NCBI GenBank assembly: GCA_946615865.1
Contig: CAMOIJ010000005.1
Span: 1 to 64,000, forward strand
Reading direction: 5' to 3'
Origin: an uncultured Lachnospiraceae bacterium
GTDB lineage: Bacteria > Bacillota > Clostridia > Lachnospirales > Lachnospiraceae
Length of the DNA stretch: 64,000 nucleotides
The translations under genes were made by a program, and so were the position numbers. Below the pieces are notes generated by a model. The model worked only from the letters and a program-made list of their open reading frames with translations. It did no database searches and was not told where the DNA came from. This document shows positions 8,069 through 60,807 of this stretch, in pieces. Each line of letters begins with the position of its first letter. Position 1 is the first letter of the stretch.

Positions 8069-9192
8069 TGCCTATACCTCTTAAACTGCAGGTGTTCGAA
8101 GGCCCGATGGACCTTCTGATGCATCTGATCGAGAAAAACAAAATTGACATTTATGACATACCTATTGTCACGATCACCGATCAGTATCTGGAATATGTAA
8201 GGCAGATGGAACACAGCGACATGAACGTCACCAGCGAGTTCCTTGTCATGGCCGCGACACTTCTCGATATTAAGAGCCGTATGCTCCTTCCCAGAGAGGA
8301 AGATGAGGAGGGCGAAGAAGAGGATCCCAGAGATGAACTGGTGAGACGTCTTCTGGAGTACAAAATGTACAAGTTCATGTCGGAGGAACTCAGGGAAAAG
8401 AGCCGGCATGCAGGTTTGAGCTATTTCAGAGAACAGGATCTTCCGGAGGAGGTGCGCAGCTACGTGCCTCCTCTCAATTATGAAGAGTTGATCGGGGATC
8501 GGACGGCGCAGAGCCTCAGAAACGTATTCGCCGATGTGATGAAGCGCAGGAAGAGCCGCGTCGATCCCATAAGAAGCGGGTTCGGAAAGATCCACAGGGA
8601 AGTGATCAGCGTCGCTGACAAAACTCTCTATATCCGGGCCTATCTCCAGAGCCATCCCCATGCGGACTTCAGGGAGATGCTCGAACTCGAGGACAGCAAG
8701 GAAGAGATCATCGTGACATTTCTTGTGATCCTTGAACTAATGAAGCACCAGAAGATCCGCATCACCCAGGAGGAGGCTTTCGGGAAGATCCTCATTGACC
8801 TCGTGGATCCGGAGGAGGACAGTTCCGCGGAGGACAGTTCCGCGGAGGCGGAGCCGCTTCCTGAAGAACCTGAACTGACACCTGAGCTGACGATGCCCGA
8901 ACCGATTATGATTGAACCGGAACCGGAAGAGCCGGCATCGGAGCAGGAACAAATACCGGAAGAACCCAAACCTGAGCCGGAATCGGAACCGGAAGAACCT
9001 GCACCTGTGGAAAAGAGACACCTGGTCCACAGACCAAGGCTTGGAAGATATGGGATTGGAAGCCTTGCATCCCGGTTTACGGCAAGAAGATCGCGCGGGG
9101 ATCTGTATCGCAGAGCCAGGGGGAACAGGATCTGGAAGAGAAAGAGGAACAGAAGCCGTGTGCTGAGGCGGATCCGGAAGGATAAACGTTAG
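8068..9192 (+). CDS. scpA: Segregation and condensation protein A
   Basis: ScpA is the kleisin that bridges SMC heads in the bacterial condensin. The N-terminus LQVFEGPMDLLMHLIEKNKI and the DIKSRMLLP segment are diagnostic. ATG overlaps the upstream stop, with CAGGAGGA as ribosome binding site. The kleisin core ends near residue 250 (ILIDLVDPEED), the normal family length. About 120 extra residues follow: a Pro/Glu-rich stretch, then an Arg-rich end. From nt 8976 to the TAA at 9183-9185 the -1 frame is also open and reads as an acidic continuation ending EEKEEQKPCAEADPEG, so the Arg-rich end may be a frameshift artefact or a real frame change. scpB is not adjacent but at 29957. Confidence 0.93.
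   Translation: MPIPLKLQVFEGPMDLLMHLIEKNKIDIYDIPIVTITDQYLEYVRQMEHSDMNVTSEFLVMAATLLDIKSRMLLPREEDEEGEEEDPRDELVRRLLEYKMYKFMSEELREKSRHAGLSYFREQDLPEEVRSYVPPLNYEELIGDRTAQSLRNVFADVMKRRKSRVDPIRSGFGKIHREVISVADKTLYIRAYLQSHPHADFREMLELEDSKEEIIVTFLVILELMKHQKIRITQEEAFGKILIDLVDPEEDSSAEDSSAEAEPLPEEPELTPELTMPEPIMIEPEPEEPASEQEQIPEEPKPEPESEPEEPAPVEKRHLVHRPRLGRYGIGSLASRFTARRSRGDLYRRARGNRIWKRKRNRSRVLRRIRKDKR
8815..8844 (+). repeat. 15-bp tandem repeat in scpA
   Basis: GAGGACAGTTCCGCG occurs twice in tandem, encoding EDSSA twice, at the junction between the ScpA core and its low-complexity tail. It probably arose by replication slippage. Confidence 0.85.
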
Positions 9193-44516: not shown

Positions 44517-45812
44517 ATGAAAAAAACACCCTATATCACCAGAGAGAAGGCAGAAGAGATAGCGAAGAAATGGCCCACCCCCTTTTATCTGTATGATGAA
44601 AAGGGAATCCGCGAGAACGCGGAGGCGGTGAAAAAGGCGTTTTCCTGGAATCCGGGATTTCGTGAATATTTTGCCGTGAAGGCGACGCCGAATCCCTATA
44701 TTATGCAGATCTTTAACGATTATGACTTCGGATTCGACTGCTCTTCCCTTGCGGAGCTGATGCTGGCCGACGCTGTCGGGGCAGATGGAAATCACATCAT
44801 GTTTTCTTCCAACGATACGCCGGCAGAGGAGTACGCGTATGCGGCTAAACTCGGCGCTATCATCAACCTGGATGATATCACGCACATTCCTTTCCTGGAG
44901 GAGATTCTGGGAGGTAAATTCCCTGAGACCATGAGCCTTCGCTATAATCCCGGCGGCGTCTTCAGGATGTCCAACGGGATCATGGACAACCCCGGCGATT
45001 CCAAGTACGGCTTCACGAAGCAGCAGCTCTTCGAGGGAGTCAGGATCCTCAAAGAAAAGGGGGTTAAGCACTTCGGAATCCATGCTTTCCTGGCAAGTAA
45101 TACTGTCACTAACGAGTATTATCCGATGCTGGCAGCCCAGCTGTTTGAACTTGTAGCTGAACTGCACCGCACCTTCGACGTGCATATCGCTTTCGTCAAC
45201 CTGTCCGGCGGCGTCGGCATAGCGTATTCCCCCTATGATACTCCTAATGATATCGCGGTGATCGGCGAGGGAGTTAAGGAAGTTTACGACGCTGTCCTGC
45301 GCGACAAGGGCATGGGAGATGTGGCGATCTACTGCGAGATGGGCCGCTTTATGCTGGCTCCCTACGGCGCGCTGATCACCAAAGCGATCCATGAAAAGCA
45401 TATCTATAAGGAATACATCGGCGTGGACGCGTGCGCGGCTAACCTGATGAGGCCCGCTATGTACGGCTCCTATCATCACATCACGGTGCTCGGCAAGGAA
45501 GACGCGCTCCGGGATCACATGTATGATGTCACGGGTTCTCTGTGCGAGAACAATGACAAGTTCGCGGTGGACCGCCTGCTCCCCAAGATCGACATGGGAG
45601 ATTACTTGTTTATTCACGATACCGGCGCGCACGGTTTCGCGATGGGTTACAACTACAACGGAAGACTGCGCAGCGCTGAACTTCTTCTGAAAGAGGACGG
45701 AAGCGTACAGGAGATCCGCAGGGCGGAGACTGAGATGGACTACTTCGCGACTTTTGACGGCACAGAGTTTTACGGCAGCCTTCAGGAGCAGTACAGAGAA
45801 CTGAGAGGCTGA
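44517..45812 (+). CDS. lysA: Diaminopimelate decarboxylase-like PLP enzyme
   Basis: 431 residues. Fold-type III PLP enzyme. The Schiff-base Lys is K55 in YFAVKATPNPY. The glycine-rich phosphate loop is LSGGVGIAYSP. YCEMGRFMLAPYG and TGSLCENND hold the substrate Arg and active-site Cys. The usual HIGSQ motif after the first domain is replaced by FGIHAFLASN. It most likely makes lysine from meso-diaminopimelate, as this Clostridial clade is generally annotated. Ribosome binding site GGAGGAA. It lies 3.4 kb before a second, shorter member of the same fold in the Dlt-like locus. Confidence 0.85.
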   Translation: MKKTPYITREKAEEIAKKWPTPFYLYDEKGIRENAEAVKKAFSWNPGFREYFAVKATPNPYIMQIFNDYDFGFDCSSLAELMLADAVGADGNHIMFSSNDTPAEEYAYAAKLGAIINLDDITHIPFLEEILGGKFPETMSLRYNPGGVFRMSNGIMDNPGDSKYGFTKQQLFEGVRILKEKGVKHFGIHAFLASNTVTNEYYPMLAAQLFELVAELHRTFDVHIAFVNLSGGVGIAYSPYDTPNDIAVIGEGVKEVYDAVLRDKGMGDVAIYCEMGRFMLAPYGALITKAIHEKHIYKEYIGVDACAANLMRPAMYGSYHHITVLGKEDALRDHMYDVTGSLCENNDKFAVDRLLPKIDMGDYLFIHDTGAHGFAMGYNYNGRLRSAELLLKEDGSVQEIRRAETEMDYFATFDGTEFYGSLQEQYRELRG

Positions 45813-46634: not shown

Positions 46635-47672
46635 TCAGTCGTAGATCTCATCGCCTTCGAGCATGTAGTAACTGACGCCCTCCATTTTTTCAAGCGTTTT
46701 CTCATATGCCGTGTACAGAGTATCCCAGTCGCTGTATTCGGGCTCTCCTCTGTGATCTGTGAGACTGTAATTCTCTCTGAGAAAGTTTCCTATATAAGAA
46801 GTGACTTTAGCGACGCCGTATTCATTGAGATGGTCGCCCTCGTCCCTGGTGTCGTGACTCCAGTCGATTCCGATCTCTTCCCAGTTCTGGTTGAGGTCGA
46901 TGTATGTAAGTCCGCGGGACTGCGCGTAGTCCCTGATGGAGTTGAGCCTTGTGGTATCGTAGCACTTGGGTGAACAGAGGCTGTAGAAGATGACATCGAT
47001 ATCATTTTTCTCACAGAGTCTGAGGATCCTGTCCATGTAGTAAGTGGAGAGGCGCTCGATCTTTTTCCTCTCATCTGTGGGCTTTAAGTAGCCTGTATCT
47101 CCTGTGTAAGGCAGGATATGCTCACTGATCAGATATCCCATATAGTATTCGCGAAGGCTCGGAGCCGATCCGACGGCCTGCCACAGATTGTGGTATCTGC
47201 AGAAAGGGAAGTAATACTCGAAGAACTCCGTGAGTCCGGTGCCGAGATCGGATAAAGGATCGTCGGTTCGAAACAGCATATTGGACTCAATGAGTATGAG
47301 ATCCGGATGCTGGTAATCGAGTCCGTGCTTTAGCAGATAATATGCCTCCGATGTCTTCGCCGCGCCTTTGCATAGATTAAAGGATGTAAATCCTTCGTCT
47401 TTCCAGAGATCCATGGGGGAGATGCCCACCATTGCGAGGCTGTTTCCTATATTATAGATATCGATACAGTCCCGGGGTATCGTTGTGATCTCCGCGTCCC
47501 GGGCATTTCTGTCCTTGATCCTTCCCTCCAAAAACCACTGCCCCGGGTTTAAGAGGATCCCGGCTCCGACAAGAAGGAATGCGAGGATCATGAAAAATGC
47601 GATGATCTTAAGCGCCGACCGTATGGGGACGCTATATTTTGATTTAGTGATTGTAGAGGGTTCCTGCGGCAT
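46635..47672 (-). CDS. Membrane-anchored SGNH/DltD-like protein (paralogue 1)
   Basis: About 345 residues from the ATG at 47672, preceded by AAGGA; a TTG at 47735 is an alternative start. An N-terminal membrane helix (LKIIAFFMILAFLLVGAGIL) is followed by an SGNH-type domain: IDIYNIGNSLAMVGISPMDL carries the Ser, with Asn in place of the Asp of GDS, and RDEGDHLNEYG carries the Asp-His pair. The tail LTDHRGEPEYSDWDTLY is shared with the paralogues at 52559 and 53685. Inverted relative to the Dlt-like operon, which starts on the other strand. A DltD-like acyl-transfer role at the cell surface is inferred. Confidence 0.82.
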   Translation of the reverse strand: MPQEPSTITKSKYSVPIRSALKIIAFFMILAFLLVGAGILLNPGQWFLEGRIKDRNARDAEITTIPRDCIDIYNIGNSLAMVGISPMDLWKDEGFTSFNLCKGAAKTSEAYYLLKHGLDYQHPDLILIESNMLFRTDDPLSDLGTGLTEFFEYYFPFCRYHNLWQAVGSAPSLREYYMGYLISEHILPYTGDTGYLKPTDERKKIERLSTYYMDRILRLCEKNDIDVIFYSLCSPKCYDTTRLNSIRDYAQSRGLTYIDLNQNWEEIGIDWSHDTRDEGDHLNEYGVAKVTSYIGNFLRENYSLTDHRGEPEYSDWDTLYTAYEKTLEKMEGVSYYMLEGDEIYD

Positions 47673-47754
47673 GTCCTGTAAGTCCTTAATAAATGACCGA
47701 ACGGCGGCTTTACGGCGATCACAAATTGTTTCCAATTTTGATCAATTCCCGAAA

Positions 47755-47782
47755 GTGACAAATTCTGAATTTTCAGTATAAT
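47755..47782 (+). promoter_or_regulatory. Promoter candidate 1 of the Dlt-like operon
   Basis: GTGACA, 16-bp spacer, TATAAT (47777-47782). Would give a leader of about 125 nt. Confidence 0.6.
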
Positions 47783-47912: not shown

Positions 47913-49436
47913 TTGGAAACTATACTTGACAGACTTGAACTGACTGAGAAAGAATACGGCAGCCGTCCCGCAGTTGACGACGGATCGGTCTGCCTTACTT
48001 ATACGGAACTCGTCACGAAGGCGAGGGGGATCGGCGCGATCCTGAGCGGGAAGATCAGCCTCAAGCAGCCTGTGGCTATCCTGGCTGAAAAGAGTACGGC
48101 TACGCTTTCCTGCATGTACGGCGTTGTTTACGCGGGCGGCTTCTACGTCAGCGTAAACCCCGAGCAGCCGCCGGAGAGGATCCGCAAGATCCTTGATGTG
48201 CTTGAATCAAAGATCGTAGTGGTGGATGAAGCCAGAAGGGATCAGCTTACTGCGTCCGGATATACCGGAGAAGTGCTCTATCTCGAGCAGCTCTATGCGG
48301 AAGCCGGCGAGATCAGCAATGAGGAAACTGAAAGACTCGCTGAGATCCGCGGACAGATCAAGGGAGAGGACCCGCTCTACGGCGTCTTCACATCCGGATC
48401 CACGGGAAATCCCAAGGGCATCATTGTGGGCCATAAGTCGGTTATCGACTTTATCGGTCATTTCACTCAGATCTTCGGAATTACCTGTGAGGACATCCTC
48501 GGAAACCAGGCTCCTTTTGATTTTGACGTATCTGTCAAGGACCTGTATTCCGCAATGTTCACAGGAGCGGAGGTCGTCCTCATTCCCAGAGAGTTCTTCA
48601 GCACGCCCCCGAGGCTTTTAGATTATCTCTGCGACAAGAATGTGACTGTACTGATCTGGGCGGTTTCAGCCCTTTGCATTGTATCCGGACTCAAGGGACT
48701 GCGCTACAGAGTGCCCGAGAAGGTCAGGATCATCATGTTCAGCGGCGAAGTGATGCCGATCAAGCATCTGCAGATCTGGCAGGCGGCTCTTCCGCAGACT
48801 GAGTATGTAAATCTTTACGGCCCCTCCGAGATCACCTGCAACTGCACTTACTACAGGATCAACAGAACTTTCGAGAAGACGGACAAGCTGCCCATCGGCG
48901 GCGCGTTCCCCGGAAGAACCGTTTTCCTTATGGACGAAGAGGGCAAAGTAGTGACGGAGCCCGGCGTGTCGGGAGAGATCTGCTGCGCAGGCGAGTCCCT
49001 GGCGATCTGCTATTACAACAATCCGGAGCAGACCGCGAAGCAGTTCATCATGTATGACTTCGGCGAAGGCGAGCAGCGCGTCTATAAGACAGGCGACCTG
49101 GCGGCATACGGAACGGACGGCGAGCTCTATTTTGCCGGACGCGGAGACTTCCAGATCAAACACATGGGACACAGGATCGAACTCGAGGAGATCGAGACCA
49201 ATTTCATGGCGCTGGACGGCGTCGCGAGAGCAGTATGCCTCTTCGATGAGCCCAAGAACAGGATCGTTTGCTGGTATATGGGCGATATCGATCCCAAGGA
49301 AGTGAGGATCCGTCTCAAGGAGAAGGTACCGGCTTACATGGTGCCCGGAAGGATCAACAGAGTCGACGACATGCCTTATAATAAGAACGGAAAGATCGAC
49401 AGAGCTTACTTCAGGACACTTCTGGCTGCGAAATAA
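47913..49436 (+). CDS. dltA: DltA-like amino-acid adenylating ligase
   Basis: 507 residues, TTG start with GGAAGGAG 10 nt upstream. ANL-superfamily adenylation enzyme: P-loop FTSGSTGNPKG, FSGEVMP, NLYGPSEITC, VYKTGDLA and the catalytic Lys in NGKIDRAYF. The pocket region NQAPFDFDVSVKDLYSAM and a Cys in SALCIVSG match DltA, which activates D-alanine with ATP and loads it on the DltC carrier. Substrate is therefore D-alanine or a close relative. It leads an operon with a PLP enzyme, a carrier, an MBOAT protein and an SGNH protein. Confidence 0.86.
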   Translation: METILDRLELTEKEYGSRPAVDDGSVCLTYTELVTKARGIGAILSGKISLKQPVAILAEKSTATLSCMYGVVYAGGFYVSVNPEQPPERIRKILDVLESKIVVVDEARRDQLTASGYTGEVLYLEQLYAEAGEISNEETERLAEIRGQIKGEDPLYGVFTSGSTGNPKGIIVGHKSVIDFIGHFTQIFGITCEDILGNQAPFDFDVSVKDLYSAMFTGAEVVLIPREFFSTPPRLLDYLCDKNVTVLIWAVSALCIVSGLKGLRYRVPEKVRIIMFSGEVMPIKHLQIWQAALPQTEYVNLYGPSEITCNCTYYRINRTFEKTDKLPIGGAFPGRTVFLMDEEGKVVTEPGVSGEICCAGESLAICYYNNPEQTAKQFIMYDFGEGEQRVYKTGDLAAYGTDGELYFAGRGDFQIKHMGHRIELEEIETNFMALDGVARAVCLFDEPKNRIVCWYMGDIDPKEVRIRLKEKVPAYMVPGRINRVDDMPYNKNGKIDRAYFRTLLAAK

Positions 49437-49451
49437 GAGAGGTTATGACTT

Positions 49452-50648
49452 ATGGAACTGAGCAGAATCAAAGAGGCGGCTGACCGCTTCGGTACACCGC
49501 TGTATCTGTTTGATCTCGACTGCATAAGAGACCGCGTGCAGAGATTCCGCGACGCGTTCAGAGGAGAGATCGGACTTACATATTCAATGAAGACCAACCC
49601 TTTTCTGACCCTTGAGATGTCCAGGCAGGTGGAGCGCATTGAGGTGTGCTCCATGGGCGAATTCAGGATCTGCAGGGATCTTGAGATCCCGGCGGAGAAA
49701 CTCTATATCTCCGGCGTTTTAAAGATCCGCGAAGACCTGATGGAGATCCTCGAATACGGTCAGGACATTGCCAGGTATACCGCGGAATCCCCGCTTCAGC
49801 TTAAGATGCTGTCCGAGTGGGCGGACGCGCATGAAAAGACTCTCAGAGTCTACCCCAGACTTACCAACGACAGCCAGTTTGGCATGGATGAGGACACGAT
49901 CCTTGGACTTATAAAGAATAGAGTGGATTATCCCCACATCGAATTCGCTGGAATTCATTTCTTCTCAGGGACACAGAAGAAAAAGCTTAAGAAGCACGAG
50001 AAGGAACTTGCCATGCTGGACGCTTTCTTTGAGAGACTGAGCGCCGAGGCGAATTTCGAAGTTCCCGAACTTGAATACGGCACGGGATTTGCTGTTTCCT
50101 ATTTCGAGGACCAGAAGAAGAAGGAAGAGGATCTGCGGGATCCGGAGCACCTTGAGATGTTCCGTCAGATGGTGCAGGATATGAAGTGGAAAGGCATTGT
50201 CACCATCGAGATGGGCAGAGCTTACGCTGCTGAGTGCGGATGCTATGTGACGACCGCGCTGGATATCAAGGAGAACAATGGAAACGCGATCTGCCTTGTG
50301 GACGGCGGTATTCACCAGCTCAATTACGACGGCCAGATCAAGGGAATGTACAGACCGCAGATGGCTGTGATCCCCGCTGACGAGCCCTGCGGCAGAGCGC
50401 AGAAGGACTGGAGCATTTACGGCTCCCTCTGCACGATGAACGACCTGCTGTGCCGGAGTTTTCCCGAAACAATCGGGCTTGGTGACCGCGTTGTCTTCTT
50501 TAAGACCGGCGCCTACAGCTTCTATGAGGGAATGTCCCTGTTTTTGAGCCATGAGCTTCCCGCTGTAGTTCTCTTCGGAGAGAAAGACGGTTTTATAAAG
50601 GCAAGGGATCAGATCCAGTCCTATACTTTCAATATGGCAAAATATTGA
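49452..50648 (+). CDS. PLP fold-type III decarboxylase-like enzyme in Dlt-like operon
   Basis: 398 residues, LysA/ornithine-decarboxylase-like fold. Schiff-base Lys K47 in LTYSMKTNPFL. IEVCSMGEFRIC replaces the usual VVSGGEL. GIHFFSGTQKKK corresponds to the HIGSQ region. ELEYGTGFAV is the phosphate loop, IEMGRAYAAECG holds the Arg, and C327 in GSLCTMNDLL fits the active-site Cys of decarboxylases. All catalytic positions look present. Its closest functional precedent by context is BtrK, a LysA-like enzyme that decarboxylates a carrier-bound amino acid. A racemase supplying D-alanine is the alternative. It sits between ligase and carrier genes, spaced 15 nt from the ligase. Confidence 0.8.
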   Translation: MELSRIKEAADRFGTPLYLFDLDCIRDRVQRFRDAFRGEIGLTYSMKTNPFLTLEMSRQVERIEVCSMGEFRICRDLEIPAEKLYISGVLKIREDLMEILEYGQDIARYTAESPLQLKMLSEWADAHEKTLRVYPRLTNDSQFGMDEDTILGLIKNRVDYPHIEFAGIHFFSGTQKKKLKKHEKELAMLDAFFERLSAEANFEVPELEYGTGFAVSYFEDQKKKEEDLRDPEHLEMFRQMVQDMKWKGIVTIEMGRAYAAECGCYVTTALDIKENNGNAICLVDGGIHQLNYDGQIKGMYRPQMAVIPADEPCGRAQKDWSIYGSLCTMNDLLCRSFPETIGLGDRVVFFKTGAYSFYEGMSLFLSHELPAVVLFGEKDGFIKARDQIQSYTFNMAKY

Positions 50649-50744
50649 GGACAAACAGATCCTATAATGATATGGCGGATTTGCCGCAAATAAGTTATGA
50701 TAAGCATGTTACTTACAACATATGAATAATACTAGGAGGAAATT

Positions 50745-50972
50745 ATGGAAGAATTACTGGAAATCCTGCAGGACATCGACGACTCTGTAGATTATGAGAA
50801 CGAGACTGCTCTCATTGACGATCACATTCTTGATTCCTTCGGAATCATCACTCTGATCTCCGAGATCGAGGAGCATTTTGATATCGAAGTAGACGCGGCG
50901 GAGATGACCCCTGAGAACTTCAACTCTGCAGCAGCAATGTGGAAAATGATACAGAGGCTTCAGGAGAACTGA
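50745..50972 (+). CDS. dltC: DltC-like carrier protein
   Basis: 75 residues, acidic four-helix carrier. The phosphopantetheine Ser is S31 in DDHILDSFGIITLISEIEE, matching the LDSFGTV motif of DltC. It receives the activated amino acid from the ligase. Ribosome binding site TAGGAGGAAA. It precedes the MBOAT gene by 4 nt. Confidence 0.92.
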   Translation: MEELLEILQDIDDSVDYENETALIDDHILDSFGIITLISEIEEHFDIEVDAAEMTPENFNSAAAMWKMIQRLQEN

Positions 50973-50976
50973 GTAA

Positions 50977-52557
50977 ATGGCTATACATACCAATCTGTAC
51001 CTGCTGGTATTTCTGCCTCTTGTTCTGATCATATACCAGCTGGCACCTAAAAAAGCAAGGTGGGGAGTTCTGCTCGCTGCCAGTTATGCATTGTATATTT
51101 CATTCAGCAAATACCTCGTGCTTCTGCTGATGGCGACGTCAGCGTTCACATGGGGAATAGGCCTGTGGCTGGATAAGATTGGCGCCGAGTGCAAGGAGAA
51201 GCAGGCGGAGTGCACGGACCGCAAACAGAAGAGCGAAGTGAAGAAGGAGTTCCAGAAGAAGAGAGTGCTTGCTCTCAGAGTGGGAGTCCTTGTTTTGCTG
51301 GGCATTCTGTTCTATGTTAACTACCTGAACTTCGTGATCGATAACATGAATATCTTATTGGGCAAGCTCGGTACGCAGCTGCCGCTGGTGAAAGTGATGT
51401 TCCCTATGGGAATTTCGTTCTACACACTGGAAGCGGTGGGCTATATCGCCGACGTATACTGGGAGAGATATCCGGCTGAGAAGCATCTGGGCAAACTGGC
51501 CCTGTTTCTGAGCTTCTTCCCTCAGATCATGGAAGGTCCCATTGCGAGATATCCCGACACATCGGATGCTCTGTTTGCAGGCGAGCCCCTGAATATGGCG
51601 AACCTCAATGAAGGTTTCCTCAGGATCATCTGGGGTCTGTTCAAGAAGATGGTAGTGTCCGACAGACTCAGCTACCTCACAACACATCTGTTCGGAAACT
51701 ACAAGGATTACCACGGAAGCTTTATCATACTGGCGGCGATCGCGTATACGATCCAGCTGTACCTTGAGTTTTCCGGAAGTATCGACATCGTCATCGGCAG
51801 CGGCAAAATGTTCGGCGTGACGCTCCCGGAGAACTTCAACCAGCCTTTCTCGGCGCAGAGCGCGGCAGAATTCTGGAGACGCTGGCACATGAGTCTCGGG
51901 AACTGGTTCAAGAACTATGTGTTCTATCCGATCACAGTATCCCCGATGGTGAAGAACTGGAACAAAACAGCCAGAAAGAAATACGGAAAGTACTGGGCCA
52001 TGGTAGGAACGAGCGCGATGGCGCTGTTTCCCGTATGGGTGGCGACAGGCATCTGGCACGGAGCAGGGTGGAAATACCTGTTCTACGGAATGTACTACTT
52101 TGTGATCCTTCTCTTTGGAGTGGCGATGGAGCCGATCAAGGAGAAAAATTACGCAAAGATGGGGCTCGACCCGAACGTCTGGTGGCTCAAGACACTGCGG
52201 ATCCTCAAGACCTGGGTGATCATCTTTACGGGAGAACTGTTCTTCAATGCAGTTAACCTAAAGGCAGGATTCCACATGTTCTTCAGTATATTCGGGAATT
52301 TCCACATCAGCTCGATCTGGAAGTACTGGCCCGACGCGATCACGACGGGAGACGTCTGGGCGATCTGCGTAGGCAGCGTCATCGTATGGATCGTCGGCTT
52401 CCTTAAGGAACACGGCGTCGATGTGAGAGGAAAAATACTGAATGCGCGCACTCCCTACAAGTGGAGCGTGTATTATCTGATCATCTTCGCGATCCTGCTG
52501 TTTGGAGCATATGGAACAGGTTATCAGCCTGTAGATCTGATCTACGCGGGGTTCTGA
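50977..52557 (+). CDS. dltB: MBOAT-family acyltransferase (DltB/AlgI-like)
   Basis: 526 residues with about ten membrane helices. MBOAT signatures are AEFWRRWHMSLGNWFKNYVF and the catalytic His H361 in TGIWHGAGWKYLFYGMYY. In Dlt systems this protein moves the acyl group from the carrier across the membrane. It is longer than typical DltB (about 400 residues) and in size and motif closer to AlgI-type O-acyltransferases. An extra charged cytoplasmic loop (residues about 65-95, KEKQAECTDRKQKSEVKKEF) is visible. One nt separates its stop from the next SGNH gene. Confidence 0.92.
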   Translation: MAIHTNLYLLVFLPLVLIIYQLAPKKARWGVLLAASYALYISFSKYLVLLLMATSAFTWGIGLWLDKIGAECKEKQAECTDRKQKSEVKKEFQKKRVLALRVGVLVLLGILFYVNYLNFVIDNMNILLGKLGTQLPLVKVMFPMGISFYTLEAVGYIADVYWERYPAEKHLGKLALFLSFFPQIMEGPIARYPDTSDALFAGEPLNMANLNEGFLRIIWGLFKKMVVSDRLSYLTTHLFGNYKDYHGSFIILAAIAYTIQLYLEFSGSIDIVIGSGKMFGVTLPENFNQPFSAQSAAEFWRRWHMSLGNWFKNYVFYPITVSPMVKNWNKTARKKYGKYWAMVGTSAMALFPVWVATGIWHGAGWKYLFYGMYYFVILLFGVAMEPIKEKNYAKMGLDPNVWWLKTLRILKTWVIIFTGELFFNAVNLKAGFHMFFSIFGNFHISSIWKYWPDAITTGDVWAICVGSVIVWIVGFLKEHGVDVRGKILNARTPYKWSVYYLIIFAILLFGAYGTGYQPVDLIYAGF

Positions 52558-52558
52558 T

Positions 52559-53605
52559 ATGACACAGGACAGCAGAAAGAGTATTGTTAAACTGATCCTT
52601 TTCGGGGGCATTACATTACTCGCGCTTGTGATTGCGTCAGCAATGATGAAACCCACGAAATGGTTTGATGAAAAACTGATCCAGGACAGAAACGCCCGCA
52701 CTGTACAGATGATGGAACAGCCGGAGAATACGATCGATGTTTTGAATCTCGGAGACAGTCTGAGCACTGCAGGCTTTTCGCCCATGGAACTCTGGAGAGA
52801 TCAGGGATATACCTCTTTCAATATCGGCGCAGACGGAATGCGTATGAACGAAGCTTATTACGCCGTGGTTGAAGCATGTGAGAAGCAGAAGCCGAAATAT
52901 CTTATGATCGAATCGCTGACGCTTTTCCGCTATGCAATGGGACAGGATCTGCAGATGCTCCTCTCTCAGCCGCTCTATCATCGGTTTTCTTTTCTGAAAT
53001 ACCACAATATTTGGAAATCTCTGGTGGAAGAAAAAGGATTGATGGAGTATCACAGAGGTTATACCATCAATCAGAATGTGTGGGAATACGACGGTGAAGA
53101 GGATTATCTGAATCTCAATGTTGGTGATTCCAACAGCAAGCTGACCATATCTGCTTTAAACAGCATGACATTTGACCGGATCAAAAAATTCTGTGATGAG
53201 AGAGGAATAGAGATCATTATTTACAGCATGCCCTCCGCCAAGAACTATAATCAGATCCGGATCGACGCCATGGAGGCTTTCGCGAAAGAAAAAGGCGTGA
53301 CCTATATCGACCTGAACGAAAAGGCGGATGATTTGGGGATTGACTGGACACAGGATACCAACGACGGCGGCGATCACATGAATCTGAACGGCGCAAAAAA
53401 GGTCGTGAAGTATTTTGGGAATTATTTCCGGGAAAACCTGAACCTGACGGACCATAGGGGAGATCCCTCTTATAGTGATTGGGACGAGGAACTCGTGGAA
53501 TACGACAAACTCGTTGAAGAGATGGATGGAAAGAGTTACCTGGACATCTACACTGAGAAGAAGAACAAAGAGTGGGACGAGAAATATAATAATAAACAAA
53601 AATAG
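52559..53605 (+). CDS. Membrane-anchored SGNH/DltD-like protein (paralogue 2)
   Basis: 348 residues. Membrane anchor IVKLILFGGITLLALVIASA. Catalytic Ser S67 in NLGDSLSTAGFSPMELW, the only paralogue here with a full GDS; D272-H273 in GGDHMNLNGAKK. The tail is LTDHRGDPSYSDWDEELVEY. Directly coupled to the MBOAT gene, so it takes the position of DltD and probably completes transfer to an extracellular acceptor. A terminator follows, so this is the natural end of the core operon. Confidence 0.85.
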   Translation: MTQDSRKSIVKLILFGGITLLALVIASAMMKPTKWFDEKLIQDRNARTVQMMEQPENTIDVLNLGDSLSTAGFSPMELWRDQGYTSFNIGADGMRMNEAYYAVVEACEKQKPKYLMIESLTLFRYAMGQDLQMLLSQPLYHRFSFLKYHNIWKSLVEEKGLMEYHRGYTINQNVWEYDGEEDYLNLNVGDSNSKLTISALNSMTFDRIKKFCDERGIEIIIYSMPSAKNYNQIRIDAMEAFAKEKGVTYIDLNEKADDLGIDWTQDTNDGGDHMNLNGAKKVVKYFGNYFRENLNLTDHRGDPSYSDWDEELVEYDKLVEEMDGKSYLDIYTEKKNKEWDEKYNNKQK

Positions 53606-53629
53606 TATTAAAGTCCCGCAAGAATTCGG

Positions 53630-53670
53630 GCTCCGGGTCTGCGATTTTACCGCGGGCCTGGAGCTTTTTT
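53630..53670 (+). terminator. Terminator after SGNH paralogue 2
   Basis: Long GC-rich stem (GCTCCGGGTCTGCG with CGCGGGCCTGGAGC, including G-U pairs), short loop, then TTTTTT. Confidence 0.8.
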
Positions 53671-53684
53671 GAAATAAGGACAAG

Positions 53685-54707
53685 ATGAAGAATTTACTTA
53701 AGATTGCAGGCTTCGTGAGCATATTTCTCATCATAACGGTATTCCTGGGCTTTTTCTTCGACGGAGGGAGCTGGTATTCCAGAGGATTTATTGCGGAGAG
53801 AGATTCAAGACTGGCCGGATTTGAAAATGAACCAAAAGGACAGATCGATGTGATCTGCGTAGGCAACAGTCTGGGTATATGCGGCGTAGATCCCATGTAT
53901 TTGTATAAGAACTATGGAATCACCTCTTACAATATCGGCTGTGAGATGCAGATGCCGGTTGAAACCTATTACACGATACGGAGGACGATCAAGGACCAGC
54001 CGGTAAAAGTGATCCTCTGGGAAGCAAACAATATATCAAAGCATCACAAAAATCTGGATGCATATATTTCACGCCTGGCGGAAGCGATCAGATACAGGTC
54101 CCCTTTTATTAAATACCACTATGTCTGGAAGAACGTAGTCGACGGCTATATTCAAAGGAATTACTTTAAGGGATTTTCAGTTAATGAGATCGCTAAGCCG
54201 TATACCGGTGGAGAATACTATGATTACAGCGATGAACATGTCGATAAATTTGCCCGCGAACAGTATTACTATTTTGACAAGATCAAAGAATTGTGCGACG
54301 AGAATAATATAGAACTGATTCTTTACGGCGTTCCTTCTCCTGTCAGTTACAATATCAGGATGCACAGAGGGATCGAGAAACTGGCAGAGGAAAATGGTGT
54401 TGCCTTTCTTGATGGCAATAGTGATACAGATAAACTTCACATTGACTGGGAGAAAGATACTTTTGATAAAGGCGATCACCTGAATCTTTTCGGGTCCGCA
54501 AAAATGACGGATTACCTGGCACAATACATGACAGGCAATTGCGAGCTGACAGATCATCGCGATGATCCCGCATATCAGTCATGGAATGAATTGATCACAG
54601 CTTATGAGCAGGAGATCAAAGATATGGAGGGAACCTCGTATTCGGAAATAGAAAAAGAGCGAAAGAGGGAGAAGAAAAACCGATATAATTATAAGGATGC
54701 TGAGTGA
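53685..54707 (+). CDS. Membrane-anchored SGNH/DltD-like protein (paralogue 3)
   Basis: 340 residues. Membrane anchor LLKIAGFVSIFLIITVFLGF. S62 in VICVGNSLGICGVDPMYLY and H265 in DKGDHLNLFGSAK. The tail LTDHRDDPAYQSWNELITAY is followed by a basic end (KERKREKKNRYNYKD). It is more AT-rich and more diverged than paralogue 2, with Tyr-rich stretches replacing parts of the middle. Ribosome binding site AAGGACAAG. It follows a terminator, so expression needs read-through or an unseen promoter. Confidence 0.82.
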   Translation: MKNLLKIAGFVSIFLIITVFLGFFFDGGSWYSRGFIAERDSRLAGFENEPKGQIDVICVGNSLGICGVDPMYLYKNYGITSYNIGCEMQMPVETYYTIRRTIKDQPVKVILWEANNISKHHKNLDAYISRLAEAIRYRSPFIKYHYVWKNVVDGYIQRNYFKGFSVNEIAKPYTGGEYYDYSDEHVDKFAREQYYYFDKIKELCDENNIELILYGVPSPVSYNIRMHRGIEKLAEENGVAFLDGNSDTDKLHIDWEKDTFDKGDHLNLFGSAKMTDYLAQYMTGNCELTDHRDDPAYQSWNELITAYEQEIKDMEGTSYSEIEKERKREKKNRYNYKDAE

Positions 54708-54997
54708 TGAAATTTAGAAATACGGGAATAATCAAGTCATCAATATCGGTGCTGACGGCATTCGTATGCCGGAAGTTTACTATACGATCCTGGAAGCGAG
54801 CGAGAAACAGAATGTATTTCACGAGAGAGGGGATCCTTACAGATCACAGAGGAGATCCTGCTTACAGCAGCTGGGACGAGGAACTCAAAGCTTATGACAA
54901 ACTTGTGGAAGAGATGGAAGGAATAAGCTTCTACCACGTTCAGAAACGGGTTGAAAAGGAGCGCAAAGAGGAAAAAGAAAAAGCCAAAGAAGAATAG
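54708..54997 (+). pseudogene. Decayed fourth SGNH/DltD-like copy
   Basis: Two pieces of an SGNH paralogue lie in different frames. Nt 54727-54812 read NNQVINIGADGIRMPEVYYT and then ILEASEKQNVF, matching FNIGADGMRMNEAYYAVVEA of paralogue 2. From about 54831 another frame reads ILTDHRGDPAYSSWDEELKA and continues to the stop at 54997, matching the paralogue C-terminus. The region between, about 190 codons including the Asp-His site, is missing, and the N-terminus with anchor and Ser is also gone. An ATG at 54707 opens a 96-codon frame through the mixture, but it is not a functional gene by this reading. Confidence 0.85.
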
Positions 54998-57075: not shown

Positions 57076-60000
57076 ATGAAGAGGTTTTTTAGCTGGATGC
57101 TTGCAGCGGCTATTGCTGCGGCAGCGGTCATTTCGACGTCGGTTCCGGGGACAGTCTGCGCCGCGGAATCTTTTGACGCGGGTACGACAGAGGCGGCTGC
57201 GGATGATGAAAACGAGGTTACCGGAAAGAATGCGGAAGGAGCAGAGAATTCTTCTTATGCTGCAACAGTTCATGAAGAGAAATGGGAAGTCGCGCCCGAA
57301 ACAGAGCCTGAAAGAGAGGAGCCCGAAGCCGGGCCCGAAAAAAAAGAGCCCGATGATGAGCCTGAAGGGGATATTTCCGGAGAACCGAATGTGGAACCCA
57401 AGGAAAGCACTGCCGAAAAGAAAGCCGGAAAAGCGGTGCTGACCGCTGCACCTGAACCTGACTGGACGAAAGGAGGCGGAGGGATCAGAAACGTTTCGGA
57501 TCTGCTCAGGATAACTCACCACGATCAATACCGCTACTGGTATGCTGATTTCGGATTTCTGGGGGAGGGCGAAGACAAATGGTCAACTTTCTGCTATGGC
57601 ATGTATTTAGGTGATAAACTGGTTGGATGGTCCTACTGCCTGGATCCGCATCTGGACGGGCGCGAAATGGAGGGCGTGACAGCAGGGGAAGTGTATGAGG
57701 TTTCGGCACCAATGTTTGTGAAAGCCCTCTATTACGGACCAAGCGGTCCCGGTTCAGATGTGATCGAGGGAATAACAGGTACTTCTGATTACGGCGCAAA
57801 CAATATTGTCACACATGTCGCGGCGTCTGAGATCTACGCGCGGCTTGGATATTCCCAGTCCGACGCCGGAGAAGGATTTGAAAATACTAACGACAGACTG
57901 AAAAATCTGGTATACAGATATGTAAAAGCGATCGAGGACCTGCCGGTTCCCGGAGGGTACTACGGATATGTCACGGAAAAGAACGGCCGCTCCGGATATG
58001 GATACAGAAATCAGAACTTCGGCTTTGGCAGTTACTCGCTCTTACCCGGCGTCAAGGTCAGAAAAGTATCATCTGATCCCGGCATGTCAGGAGGCAGCAG
58101 CTGCTACGGACTCAAAGACGCAGTCTACTGGATCTACACATCTGAACATGAGGCGCGTTTAAGAGGAGACGCGGGATATGTGAGCGGCGGCACTCTGGTC
58201 ACGGGGTCAGACGGGGTTTCTGGTACTGTTGAACTGAGCCCCGGTACTTACTATATGATCGAAGGAACGGCTCCGGACGGATTCGAACTTTCAGACAGGG
58301 TATATGAATTTACCGCAGGTGCGGGAGAAACCACAGTTGTAACAGCATATGACAGCCCCAAATGTGTTCCCGCAAATCTTATGATCGAAAAGAAATGTAA
58401 GGGCGCAGAAGGAGGGAGGATCAACAGTCTTGAAGGGACAAAGTTCACTGTCAACTACTATAAAGGCTACTATAACGCCTCTTCTCTTCCTTCAAAACCT
58501 TCTGCCAGCTGGGTCATAAAGACTCTGAAGAGCGGAAACAAATACACCGCGATGCTCAGGAACGAAAATCTTGTCTCCGGTACACTGTACAAAAGAGGAG
58601 GAGAGGTCGTCTTTCCTCTTGGGACGATCACTATCACGGAAACGGAAGCTGCCCCCGGCTACATTAACGACGGCACGTTCGGCGGCTTTAAAATGTATGT
58701 CGGACAGATCAAAGATGTCTCAGGAAAGGGAGATGTAAGACTTGTCGATATACAGGGGAAGAGAACGTCTTCGGGCAGCTTTGAGGTAACGGATACTCCG
58801 GATAAGCCCGGTGTGATAACAAAGGCCTGTGATCAGGCAACCGGTTCCCAAAATGCCTTTGCAGGAGGAGAGATCACGATCCTCGACAATGTGTCTTATA
58901 AAAACCTGATCATTGGAAATGAATATGTTATAAAGGGGCGCCTTGTCGACAAGGAAACCGGCGAAACTGTCAAAGACGCGGAAGGGCATGAAGTCACCGC
59001 GGAGAAAAAATTCACTGCAGATAAGATCAACGGCACTGTAGACATAGCATTTTCTTTCAAGGCGGACGATTCGCTTGCCGGGAAGACAACAGTTGTATTT
59101 GAAACTTTGCAATACGAGGGAAAGGATCTTGCAGTCCACGCCGACCTCGAAGATCTGCCGCAGCATATTTACTTTCCTCGGATTGGAACTGAGGCAGTTA
59201 ATCCCGCCGCCGGAGACCATATCATGGCTGCGGGAGAAGAGGCCGAGATCAGGGATACCGTCTCATACGAGAAACTGCTGCCCGGAACAGAGTATACGCT
59301 CAAGGGCGTGCTCATAGTGGGATCCACAGGAGAGCCCCTGACAGTAAACGGTGAAGAAGTGAGAGCGGAAAAGACATTTATTGCTGAGAGTCCCGAGGGA
59401 GAAGAGGAACTGGTCTTTAATTTCGACGCGTCAGGGCTCTCCGGCGATGAACTCGTCGTCTTTGAAGAACTGTATCTGGACACATCTCTGGTCGCGCAGC
59501 ACAAAGATCCTGAGGACGAAGGCCAGACCGTTTATATTCCGGATGGACACACCACGGCGGCTGATCCGGACACGGAGGAACATACAATGATGGCCGGCGG
59601 AAAAGTGCTCATCAGAGACAGGGTCTTTTATGAGAATCTTGTGCCGGGCGCCGAATACGCCGTGCGCGGAAGAGTGATGTTAAAGCCCCTGGGTGATGAA
59701 GAAGCCCTGGAACTCGAAGCCGCGATGGTGGATGAGAACGGCAAAGAAGAGGAGGAGCGGATCTTCACGCCAAAAGAGAGAGACGGAAGTGTGGATGTAT
59801 ATTTTGAAGTTGATTCCGAAGAACTCAGGGGCAGAAGCGTCGTCGTATTCGAGACAGTTGAATATATCGTGCGGGAACCTGAGTCGAGGGTTCTTTTGTT
59901 TGCCCATGAGGATATCGCGGATGAAGAGCAGACGATCCATTTCCCTGACGGGGAAACCACAGCCTTGGACAGCGACACCGGAGGCCATACCGCAAACGCT

Positions 60001-60807
60001 GATGAAGACGTAAAGATCATTGATGAGGTGAGATACATTAACCTGATCCCCGGAAAGACATACATTGTGAACGGAACCCTCATGGATAAAGAGACGGGAT
60101 CTCCCGTGACTGCGGGTGGAAAACCTGTAACGGTCTCACAGGAGTTTGTGCCCGGGAGTGCTGACGGAAGCGTGACCGTCGTGTTCGAGTTTGACGCTTC
60201 CCTGATCGAAGGGAGGTCTGTCACTGCCTTTGAGAAAGTGACTTCCCGCGGTAAGGAAGTGTTCGTCCACGAAGACCTTGAAGACAAAGAGCAGAGCATC
60301 GATTTCCCGTGGATCCGCACATCTGCAGAAGACATGGCCGACGGTGATAAGGAGATCGCCGCTGAAGGCACTGTACAGATCAAAGATACAGTTACTTACA
60401 GGAATCTGACGCCGGGGACAAAATATCGCCTGTCAGGTGTTTTGATGGACAAGGCTTCCGGAAAACCTGCTGTAAGCGAAGGACGAGAGATCACAGGAGA
60501 GACAGTTTTTACCGCCTCAGAGAAAAGCGGGAAAGCATCTGTGACCTTCAGGCTCAATTCAGCAGATCTTAAGGACGGAGAATATGTTGTGTTTGAGACA
60601 CTGTTTGAGAAAGCACCGGAAACAGGCGTAGAAAAAGTGGTCGGCACGCATCAGGATACTGAAGATAAAGCGCAGACGATAAGACGAAAGACACGGACCG
60701 GAACAGCTACGGGCGACGGGAACCATACTGTATTGTGGATCGCTGTTTTAGCAGCCGCATCAGCATGCGCGGCAGGTATCTTTTTACAAAAAAGAAACAG
60801 GAAATAA
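57076..60807 (+). CDS. VaFE-repeat surface-anchored protein
   Basis: 1243 residues. Signal peptide MKRFFSWMLAAAIAAAAVIS cleaved near VCAAES. A Glu/Pro spacer (about 40-130) is followed by a thioester-domain-like region (about 145-300) with FCYGMYLGDKLVGWSYCLDP and IVTHVAASEIYA, where His stands in place of the usual Gln. Two SpaA/Cna-B-like domains (about 325-435 and 440-575) include GTYYMIEGTAPDGFELSD and ITITETEAAPGYINDG. Five VaFE domains follow (577-1203), then a C-terminal membrane helix TVLWIAVLAAASACAAGIFL and RNRK. No LPXTG is evident; RTGTATGD precedes the helix. Likely an extended stalk adhesin stabilised by intramolecular bonds. Confidence 0.88.
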   Translation: MKRFFSWMLAAAIAAAAVISTSVPGTVCAAESFDAGTTEAAADDENEVTGKNAEGAENSSYAATVHEEKWEVAPETEPEREEPEAGPEKKEPDDEPEGDISGEPNVEPKESTAEKKAGKAVLTAAPEPDWTKGGGGIRNVSDLLRITHHDQYRYWYADFGFLGEGEDKWSTFCYGMYLGDKLVGWSYCLDPHLDGREMEGVTAGEVYEVSAPMFVKALYYGPSGPGSDVIEGITGTSDYGANNIVTHVAASEIYARLGYSQSDAGEGFENTNDRLKNLVYRYVKAIEDLPVPGGYYGYVTEKNGRSGYGYRNQNFGFGSYSLLPGVKVRKVSSDPGMSGGSSCYGLKDAVYWIYTSEHEARLRGDAGYVSGGTLVTGSDGVSGTVELSPGTYYMIEGTAPDGFELSDRVYEFTAGAGETTVVTAYDSPKCVPANLMIEKKCKGAEGGRINSLEGTKFTVNYYKGYYNASSLPSKPSASWVIKTLKSGNKYTAMLRNENLVSGTLYKRGGEVVFPLGTITITETEAAPGYINDGTFGGFKMYVGQIKDVSGKGDVRLVDIQGKRTSSGSFEVTDTPDKPGVITKACDQATGSQNAFAGGEITILDNVSYKNLIIGNEYVIKGRLVDKETGETVKDAEGHEVTAEKKFTADKINGTVDIAFSFKADDSLAGKTTVVFETLQYEGKDLAVHADLEDLPQHIYFPRIGTEAVNPAAGDHIMAAGEEAEIRDTVSYEKLLPGTEYTLKGVLIVGSTGEPLTVNGEEVRAEKTFIAESPEGEEELVFNFDASGLSGDELVVFEELYLDTSLVAQHKDPEDEGQTVYIPDGHTTAADPDTEEHTMMAGGKVLIRDRVFYENLVPGAEYAVRGRVMLKPLGDEEALELEAAMVDENGKEEEERIFTPKERDGSVDVYFEVDSEELRGRSVVVFETVEYIVREPESRVLLFAHEDIADEEQTIHFPDGETTALDSDTGGHTANADEDVKIIDEVRYINLIPGKTYIVNGTLMDKETGSPVTAGGKPVTVSQEFVPGSADGSVTVVFEFDASLIEGRSVTAFEKVTSRGKEVFVHEDLEDKEQSIDFPWIRTSAEDMADGDKEIAAEGTVQIKDTVTYRNLTPGTKYRLSGVLMDKASGKPAVSEGREITGETVFTASEKSGKASVTFRLNSADLKDGEYVVFETLFEKAPETGVEKVVGTHQDTEDKAQTIRRKTRTGTATGDGNHTVLWIAVLAAASACAAGIFLQKRNRK
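58804..60684 (+). repeat. Five tandem VaFE (T-Q ester) domains
   Basis: Repeat starts are near nt 58804, 59182, 59545, 59950 and 60313 (residues 577, 703, 824, 959 and 1080), each about 120-135 residues. Each has a Y-x-N/K-L-x-x-G block (SYKNLIIGNEY; TYRNLTPGTKY), a VVFE-like block and a closing D-x-x-Q-T/S (DEGQTVY, DEEQTIH, DKEQSID, DKAQTIR). The first closes with LPQHIYFP instead. The Thr and Gln positions fit the ester cross-link known for this domain family. Confidence 0.8.

Follow-up and report, generated by a model that had tools for sequence, protein, structure and literature searches.

Analysis of a 64,000-nucleotide stretch of DNA from an uncultured Lachnospiraceae bacterium (positions 1 to 64,000 of contig CAMOIJ010000005.1, assembly GCA_946615865.1; hereafter, the window) revealed a five-gene operon at positions 47913-53605 that encodes a ligase, a fold-III pyridoxal 5'-phosphate (PLP)-dependent decarboxylase, a stand-alone carrier protein, a membrane-bound O-acyltransferase (MBOAT), and an SGNH transferase. 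On balance, we favor the reading that this operon serves to attach a decarboxylated aminoacyl group, as an ester, to an envelope polymer outside the cell. The observations behind it are the gene content, the conserved neighborhood, the catalytic residues, a ligase pocket that is not that of DltA, the separate clade of the PLP enzyme, and an acyl-shuttle motif fused to the MBOAT.

As the initial annotation of this DNA had described, all five open reading frames are present on the + strand with their catalytic residues intact: the ligase (47913-49436, TTG start), the PLP decarboxylase (49452-50648; Lys47 and Cys327-Thr328-x-x-Asp331), the carrier (50745-50972; PF00550, phosphopantetheine Ser31), the MBOAT (50977-52557; PF03062, His304 and His361, C-terminal LIYAGF with Tyr523), and the SGNH protein (52559-53605; N-terminal helix, Ser67, and GDHMN at residues 271-275). 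The intergenic gaps, in this order, are 15, 96, 4, and 1 bases; the short spacing originally described therefore stands for three of the junctions but not for that between the PLP and carrier genes. The single terminator also described is seen 3' of the fifth gene, on the + strand at about 53629-53671, as a strong hairpin whose 15-bp stem runs into a T-run; it was missed by a simple pattern scan and detected by folding (z = -3.6 versus shuffles).

In the pathway that we propose, the ligase would adenylate the side-chain carboxyl of a dicarboxylic amino acid (most likely Asp or Glu) and load it onto the phosphopantetheine of carrier Ser31. The PLP enzyme would then remove the free alpha-carboxylate while the amino acid is on the carrier, which leaves beta-alanyl- or 4-aminobutyryl-S-carrier; the MBOAT would bring the acyl group through the membrane and attach it to Tyr523 at its own C-terminus; and the SGNH protein would accept it on Ser67 and esterify a polymer such as teichoic acid. 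The substrate, the timing of decarboxylation, the product, the polymer, and the ester nature of the cargo are the parts of this scheme that we infer. A LysA-type decarboxylase requires a free alpha-amino acid end, so a substrate on the carrier would have to be attached through a different carboxyl; this suggests an amino acid with two carboxyls, of which Asp and Glu are the simplest choices. Precedent for this order of steps comes from the VinN-VinL-VinO system, in which 3-methylaspartate is decarboxylated only after thioester formation, from FlvN, which works with Asp in the same order (PMC11284099), and from BtrK, which decarboxylates glutamyl-BtrI (PMC7857480). A small charged group different from D-alanine may in this way end up on the cell surface. 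The genome has one sulfatase-fold match, in a 787-residue protein that, by its sequence, looks like the LtaS/OpgB kind, which makes a glycerol-phosphate polymer a candidate acceptor and not more than that.

Residue conservation was counted in sets of related proteins selected by score and length (PLP enzymes, >300 bits for one source; carriers, >60; MBOATs, >300; SGNH proteins, >150). The PLP (109) and ligase (96) rows mix overlapping sources, some with the same contigs, and are not independent species counts; the PLP rows include near-duplicates, and rows that were short, scored low, or (in one source) contained X were left out. The PLP protein probably removes CO2 from an amino acid. Lys47, Cys327, and Asp331 are kept in all 109 rows, in agreement with the earlier statement that Lys47 and Cys327 are intact, and the residue after the catalytic Cys (position 328) is Thr in 103 and Ser in 6; it is Glu in two LysA references, and BtrK and SbnH have Thr at the matching position. 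The family is without a loop that the references possess. The decarboxylase C-terminal domain is matched in Pfam, and the closest PDB match by sequence is BtrK, at about 26% identity; with the decarboxylase residues kept, the comparison with LysA-fold enzymes and BtrK drawn originally holds. No decarboxylase model was matched above its cut-off among lysA (136.8 of 297.9 bits), the lysine and ornithine decarboxylase models, which match weakly, and TIGR03099 (155.9 of 478.45 bits, far below). In trees, the family forms its own clade with support of 100/100. The 50 structure matches listed for the PLP model are all decarboxylases, with no alanine racemase among them, which does not by itself exclude other folds.

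An identity as LysA, the enzyme of lysine synthesis, was rejected in view of the missing Glu, the family score, and a neighboring LysA-like gene. This separate gene (44517-45812) scores 271.2 bits against the lysA model, just below the 297.9 cut-off, and by that likeness can serve lysine synthesis. A further group of PLP decarboxylases from other Clostridia (L163-L169 and L182; ~180-225 bits) grouped close to BtrK in one of the two trees; the ligase or carrier matches of their loci are weak and kilobases distant.

The ligase matches the AMP-binding domain (PF00501, 8.7e-56) and scores 310.7 bits against AA-adenyl-dom (cut-off, 317.4). Both DltA models fall below their cut-offs (TIGR01734, 266.9 of 559.85 bits; NF003417, 274.6 of 476), and TIGR03098 is far below (180.8 of 592.35 bits). 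Pocket positions were read from an alignment to GrsA and DltA, with the sequences checked against the PDB and ligases of 450 residues or fewer omitted. The window's code, DVKIMSLCNK, has three of ten positions in common with that of Bacillus subtilis DltA, DLMTMCTVAK. It recurs with small changes in 86 of the 96 PLP-linked ligases; the other 10, all from loci with the order ligase-carrier-PLP, have IARC.SQAS.K; an example of this second class is L121, from Ruminococcus sp. zg-924. In both classes the residue at GrsA position 239, which is Lys209 in the window's own numbering of the ligase, is basic (Lys in 86, Arg in 10), compared with Met in DltA, and position 301 is Ser, compared with Cys in DltA. 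These codes speak against a DltA-type D-alanine pocket, which we regard as disfavored, and the argument of the initial annotation from a DltA-like pocket to D-alanine is not supported on this count, nor by the DltA score of 266.9 of 559.85 bits. D-alanine as the leading cargo was rejected for the same reason: 96/96 PLP-linked ligases depart from the code of DltA, also at its Cys (here Ser277). Adenylation codes for other amino acids were looked for in the literature and not found, and no argument was built on them. A search for DltA found no protein above the cut-off in any of 61 genomes (the window's own and 60 relatives, some incomplete), where the same search flags 2 of 14 control genomes; because no DltA passed, the five-gene operon is no add-on to an ordinary dlt operon in these genomes.

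The remaining three proteins keep the residues on which transfer would depend. Carrier Ser31 is kept in 86/86 rows and MBOAT His304 and His361 in 82/82, confirming the Ser31 and His361 assignments made at the outset; in the SGNH set, which includes neighboring paralogues and leaves out the weakly matching genes of Ruminococcus-type loci, Ser67 and Asp269 are present in 81/81 rows and His273 in 80/81. We take the MBOAT His and the SGNH Ser, Asp, and His to be catalytic, as in DltB and SGNH enzymes. Neither the carrier (40.7 of 68 bits against the DltC model NF003464) nor the MBOAT (139.2 of 375 bits against the DltB model TIGR04091) reaches its cut-off, and the SGNH protein, which is probably membrane-anchored via its N-terminal helix, matches no Dlt model; the 50 structure matches listed for it include no DltD and begin with small esterases, which is not an exclusion. 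An acyl-shuttle motif, FXYXXF, is carried on DltX in Dlt systems and fused to the MBOAT in PatA (PMC12148441). In the window's operon the shuttle Tyr, a feature absent from the initial annotation, is on the MBOAT C-terminus (LIYAGF) and not on a separate DltX, for which the genome was not searched. The form xxYxxF, its first position often Leu, Met, or Pro and not Phe, is the C-terminal end in 81 of 82 MBOAT proteins. The exception is at L107 ([Ruminococcus] faecis JCM 15917), a locus with split reading frames, where the ligase and PLP genes are also in pieces, through either assembly frameshifts or decay of the copy.

Relatives of the PLP gene (>90 bits) are present in 22 of the 37 genomes of the window's genus, its own included. 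An alignment of 16 of these PLP relatives, scanned against species genomes, matched 460 stretches, not all of which are assured members of the PLP clade, and the best 80 of the 460 were analyzed. These come from Lachnospiraceae, Ruminococcus, Oscillospiraceae, and Mogibacterium records, and the named bearers include Mediterraneibacter catenae, Blautia sp. An81, Claveliimonas bilis, Sporofaciens musculi, Extibacter muris, Schaedlerella arabinosiphila, and [Ruminococcus] faecis. The five genes are co-located in 66 of these best 80 loci, with SGNH genes accepted from 28 bits; the five-gene arrangement first seen in the window is conserved in its relatives. Among the 66, the window's order occurs in 56, ligase-carrier-PLP-MBOAT-SGNH in 7, and an order with MBOAT-SGNH in front in 3. 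Through these rearrangements the PLP gene stays beside the ligase (A) or carrier (ACP) gene, as A-PLP-ACP, A-ACP-PLP, or PLP-ACP-A. Ten of the remaining 14 loci reach a contig end (L049, L053, L055, L059, L077, L101, L111, L115, L116, and L128), and the genuinely different ones are L110, L074, L075, and L122. Weak SGNH matches (30 to 118 bits) are those of the ligase-carrier-PLP loci (49 to 118) and of L113, L119, and L120.

Of 391 genomes sampled across the class, 36 matched the PLP alignment at an E value of 1e-30, and 14, the window's own included, exceeded 320 bits. The neighborhoods of 12 of the 13 other high scorers were read: 10 have the five genes, 1 has ligase-PLP-carrier only, and 1 reaches a contig end. 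The surroundings of eight lower scorers contained neither an MBOAT nor an SGNH match, and in none did a ligase gene adjoin a carrier gene; kilobases off, there is a weak hit to the ligase family in six cases (25 to 80 bits) and to the carrier in one (30 bits). Since most of the high scorers read have the five genes and the lower scorers do not, the operon tracks this clade of PLP enzymes. It is a conserved system and not a chance gene neighborhood, the conservation being far beyond chance as judged without a shuffled control, and many gut and rumen Clostridia have it in common. Viral contigs, searched with the PLP alignment, yielded no relative; all five genes are present on an unverified "bacteriophage" contig from human feces (MT836540.1, 9661-15034), which is likelier bacterial DNA than phage cargo.

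Seven four-gene operons with ligase, carrier, MBOAT, and SGNH genes in several orders and without a PLP gene were also read (L189-L195); six belong to the window's genus and one to its order. Two genomes, G018 and G019, have both five-gene and four-gene operons. The four-gene ligases have five pocket codes, all distinct from the PLP-linked ones and all with Lys at position 239. The PLP gene thus goes with a particular pocket (96/96 PLP-linked ligases versus 0/7 in operons without it). At L190, a gene whose translation resembles a GNAT acetyltransferase (8195-8989) lies between the ligase and carrier genes, the usual slot of the PLP gene; it is perhaps, from this likeness, another cargo-tailoring enzyme.

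Several points weigh against carrier-bound decarboxylation of a dicarboxylic amino acid. Lys239 was considered as proof of an acidic cargo and lost weight, as 7/7 four-gene-operon ligases also have it; because it occurs in operons without a PLP gene, it does not name the cargo alone. The VinN-like and exosortase-type ligases have other pockets than the PLP-linked ligases. At position 169 of the PLP enzyme, 13 of the 109 rows replace the His common to the references with Gln and 1 replaces it with Glu, and a Blautia relative (L078) scores 154.4 bits with lysA versus 149.8 with TIGR03099, both below cut-off. The sister branch of the family is VinO-like, with support of 98/97 in the first tree and 93/92, with a long-branch warning, in the second. 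Approximately unbiased tests, set up with the first tree already seen, gave P values of 0.049 for the family with LysA, 0.060 for the family with BtrK, and 0.128 for the family with PEP1, so a closer tie to LysA is rejected only borderline; VinO sisterhood as proof was downgraded after the second tree and these tests. In the structure comparison proposed in the initial annotation, BtrK tied with diaminopimelate decarboxylase structures. Finally, L074 and L075 have no recognized carrier gene between the PLP and MBOAT genes; their carrier may sit elsewhere in those genomes.

Among the alternatives, one leads to the same final decoration by another order of steps: the PLP enzyme would decarboxylate free Asp or Glu, and the ligase would then load beta-alanine or 4-aminobutyrate (GABA). 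This route is chemically simple, but BtrK, the best PDB match, works on a carrier-linked substrate (PMC7857480), and the ligase of the VinN system refuses the decarboxylated amino acid (PMC11284099). The basic residue at 239 would also be a better partner for a substrate with a second carboxylate than for one with an uncharged chain, an argument weakened by the four-gene operons; we consider this route unlikely. It is quite unlikely that the MBOAT/SGNH pair hands the cargo to a lipid head group, a secreted small molecule, or another acceptor that is not a polymer, as phosphatidylserine-pathway genes downstream in a few loci might suggest, given that Tyr-motif MBOAT-SGNH pairs are described as envelope-polymer acylators (PMC12148441). 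The PLP enzyme could instead be a racemase or epimerase in a Dlt-like D-aminoacylation pathway, where it would either provide a D-amino acid or work on the aminoacyl-carrier. Alanine racemase shares its fold with this decarboxylase family, and Ala_racemase_N matches the PLP protein below cut-off (19.3 of 24.1 bits, E 0.001). The match to the decarboxylase C-terminal domain, the Cys327-x-x-x-Asp331 loop kept in 109/109 rows, the listed structure matches (50, all decarboxylases, an unlisted fold not being excluded thereby), and a ligase code that is not DltA's make this improbable, and the racemase role raised in the initial annotation is not upheld, its decarboxylase idea being the stronger of the two. 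That the enzyme is a bystander in the operon, with a free amino acid of unrelated lysine or polyamine metabolism as its substrate, is suggested by the sub-threshold LysA and weaker lysine/ornithine decarboxylase matches and is very improbable in view of its place between or beside the ligase and carrier genes in many named genera, the absence in 109/109 rows of the Glu that follows the catalytic Cys in both LysA references, and the separate LysA-like gene next door.

Around the operon, a consensus scan placed a promoter-like GTGACA-16-TATAAT (11/12 matches) 5' of it at 47755-47782 on the + strand; the window has 16 such sites versus 9.1 expected in shuffles, and a match alone is no sign of function. 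The terminator sits between the operon and an SGNH paralogue on the + strand (53685-54707), possibly a second transferase or esterase; a second SGNH gene 3' of the operon is also found in some near relatives, as is a divergent SGNH paralogue, here on the - strand at 46635-47735. A short open reading frame at 54704-54997 has an end like the C-terminus of SGNH proteins (LTDHRGDPAYSSWDEEL...) and is probably a remnant of another copy. Farther along, 57076-60807 encodes a large surface protein that combines a thioester domain (TED_2) with a SpaA fold and with T-Q ester-bond domains in five stretches. Across the loci, members of a two-component-kinase-like cluster lie four genes or fewer from the operon in 30 of 92, a count made without a background control, and two regulator-kinase pairs were confirmed with Pfam. 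Genes for phosphatidylserine decarboxylase, CDP-alcohol phosphatidyltransferase, and VTT-domain proteins occur 3' of the operon in 5 to 7 of the 92 loci each (e.g., L098 and L102).

D-alanylation is the textbook Gram-positive route to lower the negative charge of the envelope and resist cationic peptides. If our reading is true, many gut Clostridia (Blautia, Mediterraneibacter, Roseburia, Ruminococcus, and others) would use another small amino acid, and methods directed at D-alanine would miss this decoration. To our knowledge, making an amino acid by on-carrier decarboxylation is known only from antibiotic pathways. More tentatively, and at somewhat less than even confidence, we suggest a widespread clostridial pathway in which an achiral omega-amino acid (beta-alanine or GABA) is made on the carrier and placed on an envelope polymer via a Dlt/PatA hybrid. 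The pocket classes DVK..SLCN and IARC.SQAS would then stand for two different cargos and the four-gene operons for a further set, all within a surface aminoacylation family with interchangeable cargo modules.

Among known systems, the exosortase-A-associated trio TIGR03098-TIGR03099-carrier has the same ligase-decarboxylase-carrier order and was found next to glycosyltransferase genes on pSymB of Sinorhizobium meliloti; its ligase pocket differs, and the gene table of that stretch, which may be incomplete, lists neither an MBOAT nor an SGNH gene. Butirosin biosynthesis, with a loading enzyme of another kind than the window's ligase, is an antibiotic pathway, unlike the window's operon. Its BtrK/BtrI pair offers a LysA-fold enzyme, about 26% identical to the PLP protein, that decarboxylates carrier-bound glutamate (PMC7857480). 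VinN-VinL-VinO and FlvN, which make macrolactam starter units, likewise combine an adenylating enzyme, a stand-alone carrier, and a PLP decarboxylase acting after loading (PMC11284099), and the VinO-like enzyme is the nearest branch to the PLP family in trees with long branches; there, however, the cargo goes to a polyketide synthase, the ligase pocket differs from the window's, and the VinO-like enzyme is without the loop deletion found in the window's PLP family. PatA/PatB peptidoglycan O-acetylation has an MBOAT with a fused C-terminal Tyr hexapeptide and a separate SGNH transferase (PMC12148441), but PatA takes acetyl-CoA, whereas the window's operon encodes a ligase and carrier alongside the MBOAT-SGNH pair. 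Pathways with a fused-Tyr-motif MBOAT and an SGNH protein are said to lack a carrier protein (PMC12148441), a rule to which the operon, if our reading is true, would be an exception. The dlt operon (DltA, DltB, DltC, DltD, and DltX) is alike in joining a ligase, a stand-alone carrier, an MBOAT, and an SGNH protein in one operon and in its family of reactions. As first noted, the window's operon departs from plain dltABCD: it has an extra PLP decarboxylase and another ligase code, its ligase, carrier, and MBOAT stay below the Dlt model cut-offs and its SGNH protein has no match, and its shuttle Tyr is fused to the MBOAT and not placed on DltX. A literature search covering titles and abstract openings, with few subscription journals, found no description of this operon, and we rate it as new: a variant of MBOAT-SGNH envelope acylation with a probable carrier decarboxylase. 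Because it brings together a Dlt-type carrier supply and a PatA-type fused Tyr shuttle, it is a hybrid of two known layouts.

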